This document shows, in pieces, positions 8,922 to 15,799 of a stretch of 64,000 nt of DNA. The stretch spans positions 7,843,481 through 7,907,480 of the forward strand of contig NZ_KB217478.1 in NCBI RefSeq assembly GCF_000331305.1, given 5' to 3'. The translations under genes and the position numbers were made by a program. The notes under the pieces were generated by a model. That model worked only from the letters and a program-made list of their open reading frames with translations, was not told where the DNA came from and ran no database searches. Origin of the DNA: Calothrix sp. PCC 7103 (GTDB taxonomy: Bacteria; Cyanobacteriota; Cyanobacteriia; Cyanobacteriales; Nostocaceae). How positions within the stretch are numbered: position 1 is the first letter of the stretch; the number at the start of each line of letters is the position of its first letter.

Positions 8922-9080
8922 ATGGCTACTCAAGGACGAATGCTACTGTCTCACAACTATGATATTTTTGATTCGGTTATTCCCCTATTGAGTCGCGATG
9001 CATTTGCACAGGTGTTTACTGATGGGTTGGGCGCCGTTGCACTTCACCCAACCTACGACCACAATAATAATGAAAAATGA
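8922..9080 (+). CDS. Possible 52-aa leader ORF overlapping metK
   Basis: ATG at 8922 after an AAGG-like site, 53 codons, with its TGA overlapping the metK ATG (ATGA at 9077-9080). The peptide starts MATQGRMLLSHNYDIFDSVI. The overlap suggests coupling. However, its last third lies in a segment resembling the dispersed 'GTTGGG...CCCAAC' inverted repeat (about 9025-9052), so it may be accidental. No homology is recognised. Confidence 0.25.
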   Translation: MATQGRMLLSHNYDIFDSVIPLLSRDAFAQVFTDGLGAVALHPTYDHNNNEK

Positions 9081-10267
9081 AAAAAGATTTTATGTTTAGC
9101 TCCGAGTCTGTTACTGAAGGACACCCGGACAAGCTTTGTGACCAAATTAGTGATGCAATTGTTGATAAGTTTTTGCAAAAAGACCCTTATTCAAGAGTTG
9201 TTGCTGAGTGTGCTGTAGCTACGGCTATTGTATTTATTGCTGCTCGATTTGAGTCGGATGCTGTTGTTGATTTTACTAAAATTGCTCGCCAAGTTATTAA
9301 ACAAGTTGGTTACAATGACGCTGATTTTAATGCTAACACTTGCAGTATTATTACGAGTTTGAAGGAGTTACCTTATAGTGGCTATCGGTATTGGGATGCG
9401 CGACAATTATCTGATGAAGAGTTAGATTTAATACCTGTAAAAGACCAGGTTACGGTATTTGGATTTGCTTGTAATCAAACTCTAACTTTTATGCCTTTAC
9501 CGATTTGGTTAGCGCATAATTTAGCACGTCGATTAACGGCAGTACGTCAAGAAAAGATATTACCCTATATTGCCCCTGATGGTAAAACTCAAGTGGGTGT
9601 TGAATACAGTAATCGCAAACCTCACCGCATTCACAGTATCTCAATTTTAGCTAGTCAAAATCAGCAAAATGCCTCAATCGTCGCACATCAGCAAGAGATT
9701 AAAGAAGCTATCATTGATTACGTTTTTAAAGACGAACTTATCAAACCCGATAATAATACTCGTATTTTTATTGACTTTGACCAGTCTTTCACTATTGGTG
9801 GGCCATCAGTACATTCTGGTTTAACTGGTCGCAAAAATGCTATTGACACTTATGGTGAATATTCACGCCATAGCGGCGCCGCATTAAGTGGTAAAGACCC
9901 TACTCGTATTGATAGAGTGGGTGCATACGCTGCTCGTTACGCTGCAAAAAATATTGTTGCTGCTCAACTTGCTTCGGAGTGTGAGGTGCAAGTTACCTAC
10001 TCAATGGGACTCGCGCGTCCTGTTAGTATTCAAGTCGAAACCTTTGGAACAGGCGCCATTCCCGATGCTGATATTGCTGCTCTTTTAGAAGAACACTTTG
10101 ACTTCCGCTTAGGTGGCATTATTCGTAAATTTAATTTACGGGCACTGCCTGCCATTACCGATGGCGGATTTTATCGTAAACTTGCTGCTTACGGTCACGT
10201 TGGTAGAGATGATTTAAAAAATTTACCTTGGGAAGAACTTGATATGGTTCCACTTCTAAAAAGGTAA
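9077..10267 (+). CDS. metK: S-adenosylmethionine synthase, divergent type
   Basis: 396 residues from ATG. It makes SAM from methionine and ATP. Conserved parts are FSSESVTEGHPDKLCDQISD at the N-terminus, FGFACN (residues 128-133), GLTGRKN..DTYG (248-260) and the P-loop-like SGAALSGKDP (266-275). Two signatures differ from the usual bacterial enzyme. The GAGDQG loop reads IPVKDQV (residues 119-125), and the GGPxGDAG segment reads GGPSVHSG (241-248). From memory this variant belongs to a divergent MetK group outside the usual cyanobacterial one, so this may be a second or transferred copy. No riboswitch was recognised upstream. Confidence 0.85.
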   Translation: MKKDFMFSSESVTEGHPDKLCDQISDAIVDKFLQKDPYSRVVAECAVATAIVFIAARFESDAVVDFTKIARQVIKQVGYNDADFNANTCSIITSLKELPYSGYRYWDARQLSDEELDLIPVKDQVTVFGFACNQTLTFMPLPIWLAHNLARRLTAVRQEKILPYIAPDGKTQVGVEYSNRKPHRIHSISILASQNQQNASIVAHQQEIKEAIIDYVFKDELIKPDNNTRIFIDFDQSFTIGGPSVHSGLTGRKNAIDTYGEYSRHSGAALSGKDPTRIDRVGAYAARYAAKNIVAAQLASECEVQVTYSMGLARPVSIQVETFGTGAIPDADIAALLEEHFDFRLGGIIRKFNLRALPAITDGGFYRKLAAYGHVGRDDLKNLPWEELDMVPLLKR

Positions 10268-10381: not shown

Positions 10382-10570
10382 ATGGCAACACTTAAAATTA
10401 TGCCTGACCTTGAAAATATCAACAAGGGTCTTAATGTTCCAGGGATTATTGTCTACACGAAAAGTAAAGGATTGATTACTGGAGCTAGTGACGCTCTTGA
10501 GGATATTGTCACAGAAGCTAGAGCCGAACTTTCTGAATCGAAGTCAAGCAGCGCGCGAAGTAGTAAATAA
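10382..10570 (+). CDS. 62-aa DUF5132-like small protein, apparently without its membrane segment
   Basis: ATG at 10382 with a strong site, AAGGGGGT, 6 bases upstream. The core 'YTKSKGLITGASDALEDIVT' plus 'EARAELSE' resembles, from memory, the C-terminal part of DUF5132 proteins. Those normally have a hydrophobic Gly/Ala-rich segment before it and often sit beside metal P-type ATPases; that segment is missing here. The tail is Ser-rich (SESKSSSARSSK). The next gene, a degenerate P-type ATPase, has the same AAGGGGGT ribosome-binding sequence 200 bases downstream. The role as ATPase companion is inferred by analogy to DUF1490/PacL proteins. Confidence 0.55.
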   Translation: MATLKIMPDLENINKGLNVPGIIVYTKSKGLITGASDALEDIVTEARAELSESKSSSARSSK

Positions 10571-10770: not shown

Positions 10771-12744
10771 ATGAGCAATTTGTGCGAGGATATAACACAA
10801 ATATTGCAACAACTTCACAGTAATGCATTTGATGGATTAACAACTAGTGAAGCAAACTTGCGGCTCAAAAAATATGGAAACAATGAACAAGTTGAACAAC
10901 TGCGTTCAATAAAGCAAATTCTTTGGGAGCAGATTAGCGCAACGTTAGTAATTGTACTTATTTTATCTGCTGTAATTACCTCGATTTTTGGAGATTATAA
11001 AGAAGCGGTAGGAATCATCGCGATGATTGTGCTGATTTGTTGCTTGGGATTTACTCAAGAGTACCGCGCACAAAAAGCAATTATGACTCTTAAAAAACTA
11101 TCAGTACCCGATGTTAAGGTACTTCGCGATGGTTATATTCAGAAAATCTCTGCCTTGCACTTAGTACCAGGAGATATTATTTATCTTGAAACTGAGGATA
11201 TTGTACCCGCTGATTGTCAAGTATTAGAAAGCCAAAATTTCAGAGTCGAAGAAAGTGCAGATGTTATCTCTACAAGCTCGATTTATAAAAGTTCAGTAGT
11301 TATATCTGGACAAGCTAAAGCTATTGTCACCGAAACTGGAGTACACACAAAATTTGGGTGTATTACTAATCATACTACTGCAACCAGCCCTACTTTGCTT
11401 CAACTTCGTTTAGAAAAACTGGGACGAGTATTAACTATAGTTGTTTTTTCGGTTGTGGGAATTATTCTCGCTTTCGGCTTGCTGCGAGGTGAAGACCCAA
11501 AATTAATGTTTTTGACTGCAATTACTTTAGTTGTTGCTGCTTTACCTGAAGGTTTACCTGCTGTCGTTGCAATTGCTCTTGCTCTCGGCGCCCGTTCTCT
11601 GCTCAAAAGACGTATCCTAGTTCGTAACCTCTCTTGTGTTGAAAAACTTGGTTTTGTGACAGTAATTGGTTCTGGTAAAACAGGAATGAACAACTCCGCA
11701 CGTCCACAAGTTAGGAGTGCTGTTGTCAATTGCAAGCGTGCGGGTATTCGTCCGATTATGATTACACCCGAACATCCCCTCAGAGCTATTCATATTGCGA
11801 AAGAAGTAAATATTAATACAAAAGCGCGCGTTGTTACTGGTAGCCAATTCAATGATTTATTAAAAAATAAATCAACGTATAGACTAAAAAAGGTATCAGT
11901 TTATGCAAGTGTATCACCTACAGAAAAGCTAGCAATTGTTGAATCTTTAAAGCGGCGCCGACATGTTGTTGCCATAACAGGTAATGGAATTGATGATGTT
12001 CCGACATTCCATACAGCAGATATTGGGATAGCGATGGGATTACGCGGTACTGATGTTGCTAAAGAAGCTGCCGATATTGTGTTACTAGATGATAATTTCG
12101 CCAGTATTGTAGCAGCAGTGAAGCAAGGACGAGTAATATACGATAATATTCGTAAGTTTATCAAGTACCTGTTAAGTAGCAATATTGGTGAACTTTTGGT
12201 GATGTTGATTGCTCCCTTTTTGGGAATGCCATTACCTTTACTACCAATGCAAATACTTTGGATTAACCTTGCTACCGATGGATTACCTGCCTTAGCTTTG
12301 AGTCTAGAACCACCCGAACGTAATATAATGAATCGTTCCCCATACCCACATGATGAAAATATTTTTAGTCGAGGTATGGGCAAAGATATTCTTTGGATAG
12401 GATTATTGTTGGGAACTGTATCTTTAGCCACTGGTTATATTTACTTTAAAAGTGGCGCCGCAAACTGGCAGACTATGTTGCTTACAGTTCTCACTCTGTC
12501 TCAAATGGGGAATGCTTTAGCAACTCGTGCCGAACGTGAATCGCTGTTCAAAATTGGATTATTTTCAAACAAACCCCTATTAGTGGCAGTTGCACTCACG
12601 CTGTTTATGCAGCTAGTAATAATTTACGTTCCCGAATTCGCGCGAATCTTCTCAACTACACCACTCTCGGCTACCGATTTAATCGTCTGCTTAGGCTTGA
12701 GCAGTATTGTTTTCTGGTCTACAGAACTTAAAAAATCCTTTTGA
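10771..12744 (+). CDS. P-type ATPase pseudoenzyme (Ca2+-ATPase-like membrane core, no catalytic motifs, no N-domain)
   Basis: 657 residues from ATG with a strong AAGGGGGT site; normal PacL/SERCA-like pumps have about 900. The cation-ATPase N-terminal domain, A-domain, TM segments, P-domain remnant and six C-terminal helices are in order. Catalytic motifs are replaced: TGES becomes VIST (165-168), the phosphorylation motif DKTGT becomes GKTGM (302-306, the Asp is Gly302), TGD becomes TPE (332-334), and GDGxND becomes GNGIDD (404-409). The ~250-residue nucleotide-binding domain between DKTGT and TGD is reduced to ~25 residues. Ion-site residues remain: PEGLP (259-263), SSNIGE (469-474) and NLATDGLP (499-506). 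It should bind cations but cannot pump by the known cycle. The open frame argues against a recent pseudogene. Confidence 0.88.
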   Translation: MSNLCEDITQILQQLHSNAFDGLTTSEANLRLKKYGNNEQVEQLRSIKQILWEQISATLVIVLILSAVITSIFGDYKEAVGIIAMIVLICCLGFTQEYRAQKAIMTLKKLSVPDVKVLRDGYIQKISALHLVPGDIIYLETEDIVPADCQVLESQNFRVEESADVISTSSIYKSSVVISGQAKAIVTETGVHTKFGCITNHTTATSPTLLQLRLEKLGRVLTIVVFSVVGIILAFGLLRGEDPKLMFLTAITLVVAALPEGLPAVVAIALALGARSLLKRRILVRNLSCVEKLGFVTVIGSGKTGMNNSARPQVRSAVVNCKRAGIRPIMITPEHPLRAIHIAKEVNINTKARVVTGSQFNDLLKNKSTYRLKKVSVYASVSPTEKLAIVESLKRRRHVVAITGNGIDDVPTFHTADIGIAMGLRGTDVAKEAADIVLLDDNFASIVAAVKQGRVIYDNIRKFIKYLLSSNIGELLVMLIAPFLGMPLPLLPMQILWINLATDGLPALALSLEPPERNIMNRSPYPHDENIFSRGMGKDILWIGLLLGTVSLATGYIYFKSGAANWQTMLLTVLTLSQMGNALATRAERESLFKIGLFSNKPLLVAVALTLFMQLVIIYVPEFARIFSTTPLSATDLIVCLGLSSIVFWSTELKKSF

Positions 12745-13057
12745 TACACGTAAATAAAATTGCAGAAAGGCGTGCAAGGAGGATAAATCGCTCTCCGCTG
12801 CTTTTCTGCATTTGTGCGTAAGTAAATAAACCCATGAGTCTCATCATTATGGCACTATGTACAAGTGTTTTTATTTCGTTTCAAGCCAATTGTGCTGTTC
12901 ACTTGCAATTTACGCATAAAAATAATGCAATAATCGCAATTGGATAAATATACTACCGTAGCAAAATCTAAATATTCTCAACGGTTAGTTGTTAATTGTT
13001 TCTCGTTAATGGTTAATTGTTATTTATCTGGCTGTTTATACTATTAGTTTGTCACCG
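12745..13057. other. Intergenic stretch with terminator-like hairpin and TTAATTG-type short repeats
   Basis: TGCAGAAA (12761-12768) pairs with TTTCTGCA (12803-12810), a probable terminator for the ATPase-like gene. About 12985-13025 carries degenerate 'GTTAATTGTT' repeats. No gene is seen. Confidence 0.5.
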
Positions 13058-13585
13058 ATGAAAATTTCGACCGATAACCGAGTTCCCTTTCCACGCCAAA
13101 TTGTATATACTACCTACCGGGATAAAATAACCGAATTAGTTCGTTATGTGCCAGATATTCGCACTATTAACGTCAAGTCCCGACGTGAAGCAGATAACAT
13201 TATATATATAGTCAACGAGTGGCATGGTGGTGGCGAAATTCCATTGGCAGCAAGAGCGTTACTAAGTGAGGATATGCTGTCTTGGCTTGAACACGATGTC
13301 TGGGATGAATCTAAATTTACACTAGATTGGCGCCTAGAAACGCGCGCTTTTACTGAAGCCGTCTCCTGTATAGGCAAAAATACTTTTATTGAAGATGGTG
13401 ATGCAACTATTATTCAAAGTCGAGGCGAACTGAAGATAGACCCGAATCAAATACATGGGGCGCCTGCATTTCTTACAGGTCAAATAGCCCGTGTCGTCGA
13501 AGATTTTTTAGCTGCCAAAATAAAACCAAGTTTAGTCCAAATGAGCGACGGTGTGCGTAAGTACTTGGAAAGAGCAGGTAATTAA
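13058..13585 (+). CDS. SRPBCC (START/Bet v1-like) family protein
   Basis: 175 residues from the ATG at 13058; a TTG three codons upstream is less likely. The pattern 'FPRQIVYTTYRDKITELVRY' at the start, NEWHGGGEIP in the middle and 'WRLETRAFTEAV' fits the SRPBCC helix-grip fold, which makes a hydrophobic ligand pocket. Members range from lipid binders to polyketide cyclases, so the ligand cannot be named. No signal peptide or membrane segment. It ends just before a strong 12-bp hairpin at 13632-13665. Confidence 0.7.
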   Translation: MKISTDNRVPFPRQIVYTTYRDKITELVRYVPDIRTINVKSRREADNIIYIVNEWHGGGEIPLAARALLSEDMLSWLEHDVWDESKFTLDWRLETRAFTEAVSCIGKNTFIEDGDATIIQSRGELKIDPNQIHGAPAFLTGQIARVVEDFLAAKIKPSLVQMSDGVRKYLERAGN

Positions 13586-13631: not shown

Positions 13632-13665
13632 CAAGCCATGTAGATTAAAACAACTACATGGCTTG
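13632..13665. terminator. 12-bp perfect inverted repeat
   Basis: CAAGCCATGTAG (13632-13643) and CTACATGGCTTG (13654-13665) with a 10-base loop lie right after the SRPBCC gene. There is no T-run, so it is either a factor-dependent stop or an operator for the next gene, whose start is 7 bases downstream. The hairpin could mask that gene's ribosome-binding region. Confidence 0.5.
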
Positions 13666-13671
13666 TATATT

Positions 13672-14490
13672 GTGAAGTGGCTAGCAATTTACTTTAAAGA
13701 CCCTCGTGATTATCAAATTTTATTCCTGTGTTCATTTCTGATACTGGGAATAGGTGCCAGAGATTGGACATTAAAACCTAAAGTTATTTGTGTAGCTATT
13801 GGCACGTGCTTAGTTACGCAATTATTAATGTCTTTTTTTCTCAGTAACGATTCACCCGTAGGAAAATCGCTAAAAAGTGCATTAATTACTTCTTTAGGAC
13901 TTAGTTTGCTGCTGCGTGTAGACCATTGGACAACGATGGCACTTGCAGCAACTTGTGCTATTGCAAGTAAATTTGTATTTAAAGTCGGTGATAAACACTT
14001 TTTCAACCCGGCAAACTTTGGCATTATTACAGCTTTAGTATTTACGAATGATGCTTGGGTATCACCTGGACAGTGGGGTGAAGATTGGTGGTATGCAATA
14101 ATTTTTGCTGGATGTGGAGGTATGGTTCTCAAGCGTGTTGGTCGTTGGGATACTACTGCTGCATTTTTAGGTGCCTATAGTTTACTTGAAGCTGTTCGCA
14201 ATTTTTGGCTTGAGTGGACTTGGGATGTATTCGGGCATCGTTTAATGAGTGGGTCTTTATTATTGTTTGCTTTATTTATGGTGACAGACCCTCGCTCAAT
14301 ACCCAATACCCCCATTGGCAGAGTTACTTGGGCATTATGTATTGCCGCACTCACTTTTATTTTACGCAACTACTTTTATTTATCTACCGCTGTTTTTTGG
14401 GCGTTATTTGCTCTCTCTCCTACCACAGTATGGTTTGATACTTTGTTTCAAGGACATTGTTTTAAGTGGAAAGTGAGTTGTGCTGAGTAA
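13672..14490 (+). CDS. RnfD/NqrB-family membrane protein
   Basis: 272 residues if started at the GTG at 13672; the TTG at 13663 falls inside the hairpin. It is a polytopic membrane protein with about 8-9 hydrophobic segments. The family region 'FFNPANFGIITALV' and 'MVTDPRSIPNTPIGR' corresponds to the flavin-attachment and core region of RnfD/NqrB subunits. No other Rnf or Nqr subunits are nearby, so this is a stand-alone homologue, perhaps a flavin-binding membrane redox protein. The DUF2330 gene follows after 34 bases. Confidence 0.8.
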   Translation: MKWLAIYFKDPRDYQILFLCSFLILGIGARDWTLKPKVICVAIGTCLVTQLLMSFFLSNDSPVGKSLKSALITSLGLSLLLRVDHWTTMALAATCAIASKFVFKVGDKHFFNPANFGIITALVFTNDAWVSPGQWGEDWWYAIIFAGCGGMVLKRVGRWDTTAAFLGAYSLLEAVRNFWLEWTWDVFGHRLMSGSLLLFALFMVTDPRSIPNTPIGRVTWALCIAALTFILRNYFYLSTAVFWALFALSPTTVWFDTLFQGHCFKWKVSCAE

Positions 14491-14524: not shown

Positions 14525-15799
14525 ATGAAATTAAAATTTTTGATGACGCTATTTGTTTTGTGTATTGCACTATTATGCTTTACACCTGCTGCTTGGGCTT
14601 TTTGCGGTTTTTACGTAGCTAAAGCTGATACCAAACTATATAACAAAGCATCACAGGTAGTCATTGCGAGAGACGATAAAAAAACTGTGTTAACAATGGC
14701 AAATGACTTTCAAGGTGAAGTCAAAGATTTTGCGATTGTTGTTCCTGTACCAACCGTGTTGCAAAAAGAACAAGTAATTGTTGGTAAGCCAAAAATTATC
14801 GAACGTTTGGATGCTTTTAGCGCTCCCCGTTTAGTTGAATATTTTGACCCTGACCCATGTGAGCCAAGTTATGCTAGAGAAAGCGATGTACTAAGACCCT
14901 TACCAATGCCTTTACCACCATCTGCTCGTAGCACGCGCGGTGGAGATTTGGGTGTGACGGTGGAAGCACGGTACAGTGTCGGGGAGTATGATATTTTAAT
15001 TCTTGGCGCCAAAGAATCAGGAGGTTTACAAACTTGGCTCAACCGTAACGGTTATAAAATTCCACGAGAAGCTTCTTCATTACTCAAACCTTACATTCGC
15101 CAAAAAATGAAGTTCTTTGTCGCGAAGGTAAATATCGATAAGTTTGAAGAAAGTGGTTATCAATATTTACGTCCGTTACAAATATCTTACACTTCTCCCA
15201 AATTCATGTTGCCAATTCGTTTGGGGATGATGAACGCTTTGAGTGAACAAGATTTGATAGTGTATGTACTTTCTCCACAAGGACAAGCTGAAATTACTAA
15301 CTATCGAACGGTCAAGGTTCCGAGTGATATCAACATTCCAGTATTTGTGAAAGAAGAATTTGCAGATTTTTACAAGTCGATGTTTCAAACCTCTTACACC
15401 AAAGAAGACCGTAAAGTCGCATTTCTTGAATATGCTTGGGACATGGCAAGCTGTGATCCCTGTTCTGCTGAACCTTTGAGTAATTCTGAACTAAAAGACG
15501 CTGGTGTATTTTGGGGTGATAAAAGTAATAACGTTTTTATTACCCGGTTACATGTTCGCTACACACGCGATAAGTTTCCTGAAGACTTGATATTCCAAGA
15601 AACTTCAAATAAAGAAAACTTTCAAGGACGTTACATCCTTCAGCATCCCTTTACGGGTGAAGCGAAATGCGCTACGGGTCGAGAATATAAGCGTCGTTTA
15701 AACAAACGTTTTGAACAAGAAGCACAAACTCTAGCGAAACTTACTAATTGGAATATTCGGGATATTCGTCAAAAAATCAAGCAAAAAAACCAATCTTAA
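14525..15799 (+). CDS. DUF2330 domain protein, exported
   Basis: 424 residues from ATG. A signal peptide (KFLMTLFVLCIALLCF, cleavage probably after AWA, residue 26) is followed by the DUF2330 start 'CGFYVAKADTKLYNKASQVV'. The domain contains repeated Cys residues (DPCEPSY, CDPCSAE), suggesting disulfides or metal binding in the periplasm. The function is unknown. It lies 34 bases behind the RnfD-like gene and is probably co-transcribed. From memory this pairing recurs in cyanobacteria and hints at a periplasm-linked redox role. Confidence 0.85.
   Translation: MKLKFLMTLFVLCIALLCFTPAAWAFCGFYVAKADTKLYNKASQVVIARDDKKTVLTMANDFQGEVKDFAIVVPVPTVLQKEQVIVGKPKIIERLDAFSAPRLVEYFDPDPCEPSYARESDVLRPLPMPLPPSARSTRGGDLGVTVEARYSVGEYDILILGAKESGGLQTWLNRNGYKIPREASSLLKPYIRQKMKFFVAKVNIDKFEESGYQYLRPLQISYTSPKFMLPIRLGMMNALSEQDLIVYVLSPQGQAEITNYRTVKVPSDINIPVFVKEEFADFYKSMFQTSYTKEDRKVAFLEYAWDMASCDPCSAEPLSNSELKDAGVFWGDKSNNVFITRLHVRYTRDKFPEDLIFQETSNKENFQGRYILQHPFTGEAKCATGREYKRRLNKRFEQEAQTLAKLTNWNIRDIRQKIKQKNQS

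Follow-up and report, generated by a model that had tools for sequence, protein, structure and literature searches.

The stretch analysed here (64,000 nt of the 11.6-Mb genome of Calothrix sp. PCC 7103, referred to below as the window) carries, a short distance downstream of metK, an open frame for a P2A-type ATPase from which most of the catalytic apparatus has disappeared. The features of the locus are as follows, with G001 standing for another genome of the same genus.

9077..10267, + strand: metK, the upstream synteny anchor common with G001
10382..10570, + strand: decayed DUF5132 frame of 62 aa without the predicted-membrane-helix segment of its 91-aa counterpart in G001 (Pfam 24.3 bits, just below the 25-bit cut-off)
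10771..12744, + strand: catalytically dead P2A-type ATPase without N-domain, 657 aa (open frame with ATG start; Pfam, NCBIfam and PDB matches; alignment)
11263..11274, + strand: VIST (residues 165-168) at the TGES columns of the alignment
11545..11559, + strand: PEGLP, the M4 cation-site motif (residues 259-263), retained (alignment)
11674..11688, + strand: GKTGM (residues 302-306) replacing DKTGT, with the N-domain deletion junction directly here (alignment)
11764..11772, + strand: TPE (residues 332-334) replacing TGD (alignment)
11980..11997, + strand: GNGIDD (residues 404-409) replacing GDGxND (alignment)
12175..12192, + strand: SSNIGE, the M5 cation-site motif (residues 469-474), retained (alignment)
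12265..12279, + strand: NLATD, the M6 cation-site motif (residues 499-503), retained (alignment)
13049..13585, + strand: gene of 178 aa without a Pfam match, the downstream synteny anchor, 83% identical in G001

Downstream of the pump there are also an NQR2/RnfD-like gene (13663-14490) and a DUF2330 gene (14525-15799), both of which are present in the G002 and G003-G006 stretches and missing from that of G001.

P-type ATPases are defined by a phosphorylated Asp, in place of which the window protein has Gly. Its membership in the superfamily is supported by the model TIGR01494 (198.3 bits against a cut-off of 62.3) and by the Pfam N-terminal, E1-E2 and C-terminal cation-ATPase domains, all above their cut-offs, while the P-domain model (Hydrolase) stays below its own (22 against 26.4 bits). 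The top NCBIfam models are those of PMR1- and SERCA-type pumps, and the nearest solved relatives by sequence are SPCA1, the Listeria Ca2+-ATPase (lmo0841) and SERCA. In the PDB sequence search SPCA1 is matched in two blocks, 9-306 and 287-653, that flank its N-domain; the alignment places the missing segment between GKTG and MNNSARP, where relatives have this domain, and reveals another, smaller deletion in the TGES region of the A-domain. The protein resembles P2A Ca2+-ATPases, including the cyanobacterial PacL-type ones, in fold as judged by sequence, in domain order and in the M4, M5 and M6 residues (PEGLP, SSNxGE and NLxTD), which fulfil the cation-site criterion of this group. It differs from them in having no phosphorylatable Asp, no TGES Glu, TGD or GDGxND and no N-domain, and in scoring below the P2 equivalog cut-offs (TIGR01522, 478 against 798.3; TIGR01116, 402.9 against 703.4). 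A structure prediction built on four near-identical rows reached a mean pLDDT of only 31 and was not used as evidence.

The preliminary description of this gene had read the four altered motifs, the absence of the N-domain and the survival of the Ca2+-site residues in the membrane directly from the sequence, and alignment to relatives bears all of this out. Its statement that every catalytic motif is lost goes slightly too far: the main motifs are indeed replaced, but of DKTGT the Lys and the first Thr survive, as do the Lys of the P-domain and the final Asp of GDGxND.

The expectation that relatives sharing the deletion would be found was met by orthologues of 657-658 aa, 95-97% identical, in Dulcicalothrix desertica PCC 7102, Calothrix sp. 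PCC 7716 and Calothrix sp. HK-06. The alignment places the deletion junction at the same point in all four genes, all of which read GKTGM, TPE and GNGIDD, have Ser (three) or Tyr (one) at the position of the TGES Glu and Asn instead of the DPxR Asp, and retain the P-domain Lys. A sequencing error is very unlikely, given that the junction and the three motifs recur in three other assemblies.

The short genes are under purifying selection. Their pairwise dN/dS, for which the preliminary description had named a value near 1 as refuting its reading, is 0.15-0.19 (upper bootstrap limits 0.27-0.32); five flanking genes in the same four species give 0.01 to 0.27. In a branch codon model over 654 codons the crown of the short genes has a dN/dS of 0.175 and their stem one of 0.32; the branches of the longer forms in G001, G014 and G010 have 0.084, roughly half the crown value. 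A crown dN/dS of 1 is rejected, as it lowers the log-likelihood by 56 units (likelihood-ratio statistic 112), while for the stem the loss is 3.0 units (statistic 5.9); the deep branches of this model are saturated. Since a single deletion junction is common to all four genes, the constraint acted after the N-domain had been lost. Pairs of longer dead genes (0.10-0.15, n=3) gave values like those of pairs of their catalytic sisters (0.11-0.17, n=5).

These data bear on the idea that the gene is merely a pseudogene awaiting loss, for which the fate of the locus in some relatives offers a certain support. In G005 (locus L063) only two remnants of the dead pump are left, one of 36 bases and one of about 209 bases from the 3' end, corresponding to window positions 11778-11813 and 12536-12744; they lie between metK and the next genes, with normal sequence beyond, as a deletion caught mid-process. 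In G003 no match to the dead pump was found between the flanking genes. The flanking-gene tree places G005 beside G006 inside the short-form group (100/100), so the loss in G005 is secondary, and the gene appears to be dispensable in some lineages. The adjoining DUF5132 gene is broken throughout the short-form group: the membrane-helix segment is gone in the window and in G004, the G006 copy aligns with a deletion and a 2-base insertion, and in G002 only the start remains. One of the longer relatives (G832) is frameshifted as well. Nevertheless, the low dN/dS following the common deletion and the fact that indels among the four short copies comprise whole codons are not the behaviour of a pseudogene, and we consider this explanation very unlikely. 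Conservation under selection with the calcium-binding residues intact suggests instead a job that needs no pumping.

The origin of the short form is illuminated by G001, where a 978-aa orthologue occupies the same place, with metK upstream and a 172-aa gene downstream. It possesses the N-domain, TGD and GDGIND and already reads GKTGT, with TGES missing. Among 388 genomes of the order, six (G336, G325, G023, G014, G168 and G265) match a degenerate DNA pattern for SGKTGT, counted only inside P-type frames as it also matches other frames; a class-wide sample of 388, which overlaps with the first, added one from another order (G526). Many of the WGKTGT matches may be penicillin-binding or carboxypeptidase proteins. 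When 217 genomes of the family were searched with a profile, 16 reached E <= 1e-299, and every one has a protein with Gly at the Asp site; among these, G013 reads SGKKGT, and G014 additionally holds a catalytic sister. The frameshift of G832 (L153) lies between residues 270 and 271 of the G014 protein numbering and may be decay or an assembly error. The 16 family members, the five dead pumps outside the family (G336, G325, G168, G265 and G526) and the four short forms make up 25 rows, 21 of them N-domain-bearing. Only cyanobacterial genomes were sampled. Wherever the motif could be read in the P-type loci examined, the residue at the site was either Asp or Gly, with the reservation that the pattern search covered GKTGT only.

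Gly is invariant in the 25 dead rows and is encoded by GGT, GGC or GGG. At the position of the TGES Glu the 21 longer rows have Val (8), Ile (5), Ala (4), Thr (2), Glu (1) or a gap (1), so that Glu is missing in 19 of the 20 readable cases. The rest of the ATP site is largely kept: the TGD Asp, all three tested GDGxND residues, the Asp and Arg of DPxR and the P-domain Lys in 21/21 rows, the KG Lys and the first Thr of DKTGT in 20/21 each, and the TGD Gly in 19/21. The Ala of KGA is the exception, being changed in 20 of the 21, which could mean altered nucleotide binding.

The cation site is invariant. The M4 Glu, the M5 Asn and Glu and the M6 Asn, Thr and Asp are present in all 25 dead rows, whereas in the catalytic sisters (L116-L134 and L046) the M6 Thr is Ala in 13/20 and the M5 Glu is lost in 1/20. 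The calcium site of the dead clade is therefore more canonical than that of most of its active sisters, the ion preference of which may differ because of the M6 Ala. This invariance would be compatible with a passive cation path, in which the membrane core without its motor lets Ca2+ or Mn2+ through as a gated leak or channel, and so would the finding that the window protein, from a group devoid of nucleotide motifs, agrees best with its G001 counterpart in M5-M6 (89% identity). No path-opening change was identified, however, the A- and P-domains are still constrained, and a plain channel would have no need of the ATP site kept in the longer relatives; such a path thus remains conceivable but doubtful. 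The conserved cation residues may also reflect inherited structure and are not proof of cation binding.

In a 51-row tree all 25 dead rows, including the window protein with its Gly at the Asp site, form one clade (support 100/99) that lies beside 20 catalytic sisters and apart from six canonical pumps. The 14 dead rows available to an earlier 47-row tree were likewise a single clade (100/100); that tree contained the sisters L135-L137 and the canonical rows L017, L028, L138 and L139, which are omitted from the larger one. After removal of the columns that separate the groups, the 14 rows of that run still clustered together against 19 sisters (SH-aLRT 99). The column comparison and the reduced tree omit L128 and L135-L137, and both predate the last 11 dead rows. 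Several independent losses of the Asp are not supported, one clade being recovered with and without the diagnostic columns. The first branch within the clade is G794 (L149), which has Gly at the Asp site and an intact TGES and is apparently an intermediate.

The sequences and trees show that the gene belongs to a cyanobacterial P2A-type clade in which the phosphorylated Asp has been replaced, and the Asp-to-Gly change preceded the loss of the N-domain; the simplest order of losses would be Asp, then the TGES Glu, then the N-domain in the Calothrix/Dulcicalothrix lineage. The retention of the TGD Asp, GDGxND and the N-domain in the longer members of this clade means that the ATP site outlived phosphorylation. 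Later, the lineage of the window also lost its N-domain together with the motifs for nucleotide and magnesium, while the cation site and the membrane core remained under selection. The pseudoenzyme reading of the preliminary description is supported by the relatives with the same deletion and by the low dN/dS, but it overlooked the stepwise course of the process, as relatives that still bear the N-domain had already exchanged Asp for Gly.

The preserved ATP site of the longer relatives could be taken to mean that the proteins are still catalytic in some way, using another residue or an N-domain supplied in trans, and, in the available parts of the literature on the animal protein ERMA/TMEM94, activity without TGES and GDGxND has been claimed (PMC13322241) and disputed (PMC12134183). 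The Asp, however, is replaced in 25/25 rows, and according to the available text of the former paper the Asp-to-Asn change abolishes uptake by ERMA itself and similar changes inactivate SERCA and Na,K-ATPase (PMC13322241). Supply of the N-domain in trans finds no support either: no free-standing N-domain occurs among the matches in the window genome, which all belong to full-size pumps, the one exception being an edge match of 29 residues within the dead gene itself. Residual catalysis is hardly credible on this evidence.

A DUF5132 gene is present in the examined flanks of 11 of the 21 longer dead pumps (one match is partial, at a locus edge) and was not found in those of the other 10, the flanks being unequal in length; among 23 loci of catalytic sisters, three (L123, L126 and L129) have one. 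In 13 selected genomes there are 36 DUF5132 matches above the cut-off, at least 16 of them within 4 kb of a P-type ATPase (for example, G000:C7:7560726, L041:6064-6339 and L042:6732-7052). Among the matches listed, DUF5132 lies within 4 kb of 6/11 dead pumps against 9/139 other ATPases (Fisher p 1.2e-4). These genomes are related and were chosen for their dead pumps or, in the case of G351, for a DUF5132-linked sister, and the comparison rests on 150 of 197 ATPase matches. A family of unknown function is hereby linked to P-type ATPases.

This frequent adjacency is what one would expect of a scaffold or assembly factor that organises other membrane proteins and for which ATP and cation binding are both irrelevant. 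Mycobacterial efflux platforms are organised by small transmembrane proteins encoded beside P-type ATPases, as far as the available part of PMC9374683 describes them, and the single-TM protein PacL1 (DUF1490), which accompanies a P1B-ATPase, is comparable to DUF5132 in this position. The two belong to different Pfam families and adjoin different ATPase classes; DUF1490 is described in the same portion of that paper as exclusive to Actinobacteria, and five DUF5132 proteins compared with Pfam, with E values up to 1 allowed, gave no DUF1490 or DUF6110 match, although no profile-profile comparison was made. A plain scaffold would need neither the invariant cation site nor the TGD Asp and GDGxND that are invariant in the longer forms, and we regard this role as rather improbable.

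In our opinion the window protein would represent the cation-dependent membrane part alone and serve another membrane complex, such as a catalytic P2 pump, as a subunit for regulation or sensing. We assign this reading a probability of about 0.5; it is an inference, with no data on function, expression or structure behind it. Lacking the Asp, the protein could neither form a phosphoenzyme nor run the phosphorylation cycle, which argues that it is not a pump. Changes at the Asp site can raise ATP affinity. The longer relatives would probably bind ATP and cation without turnover and act as a switch, with the DUF5132 protein as a candidate partner, though no partnership has been demonstrated. The window form would have given up ATP but not the cation site, so that its selected role should be sought in the membrane part, be it regulation or sensing as a subunit or the passage of cations. 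More tentatively, Gly itself may have been selected after a single replacement of the Asp, so that former calcium pumps came to hold ATP and cation without ever turning over, as sensors of energy and cation; one Calothrix/Dulcicalothrix lineage would then have shed the ATP module, leaving a selected, purely cation-driven membrane protein, whether a sensor, a subunit or a channel. Replacement of the Asp is reported to inactivate SERCA and Na,K-ATPase and to trap an E1-like state in the available part of a 2026 paper (PMC13322241).

The fold itself is known, while in open-licence PMC, as far as titles and abstract openings allow one to judge, we found no earlier description of a bacterial clade in which loss of phosphorylation has been selected, or of the removal of the N-domain, and no report that we could recognise as concerning the dead clade. 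The words pseudo-ATPase or pseudopump alongside P-type ATPase were not found there, DUF5132 is not mentioned in that literature, and the examined parts of a 2023 review of P-type ATPases (PMC10654040) contain no such pseudoenzyme family. A close parallel, drawn on architecture and motifs alone, is the animal protein TMEM94/ERMA, which, in the available portions of PMC12134183 and PMC13322241, shares with the window protein the P-type architecture, the missing TGES and the replaced GDGxND. TMEM94 differs in retaining the Asp (DKQGI) and an N-domain-like part, its transport being disputed; the cyanobacterial clade, on the contrary, has lost the Asp and kept GDGxND in its longer members. It may be considered a bacterial counterpart to the TMEM94/ERMA dispute, in which the Asp was lost once and the constraint equals that of the working sisters. 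The natural series from an active sister through G794 (Asp lost, TGES kept) and the forms without Asp and Glu that keep the ATP site to those without the N-domain allows a step-by-step comparison, by which the roles of the membrane part and of the ATP site apart from pumping become testable.

Parts of other cation ATPases lie near some of the longer dead pumps. In G325 an N-terminal part (L095:7029-8315) ends 2 bases before the dead pump, in G336 a C-terminal part (L094:26-832) precedes it at the contig start, and in G526 another C-terminal part (L107:11529-12125) is two genes away.
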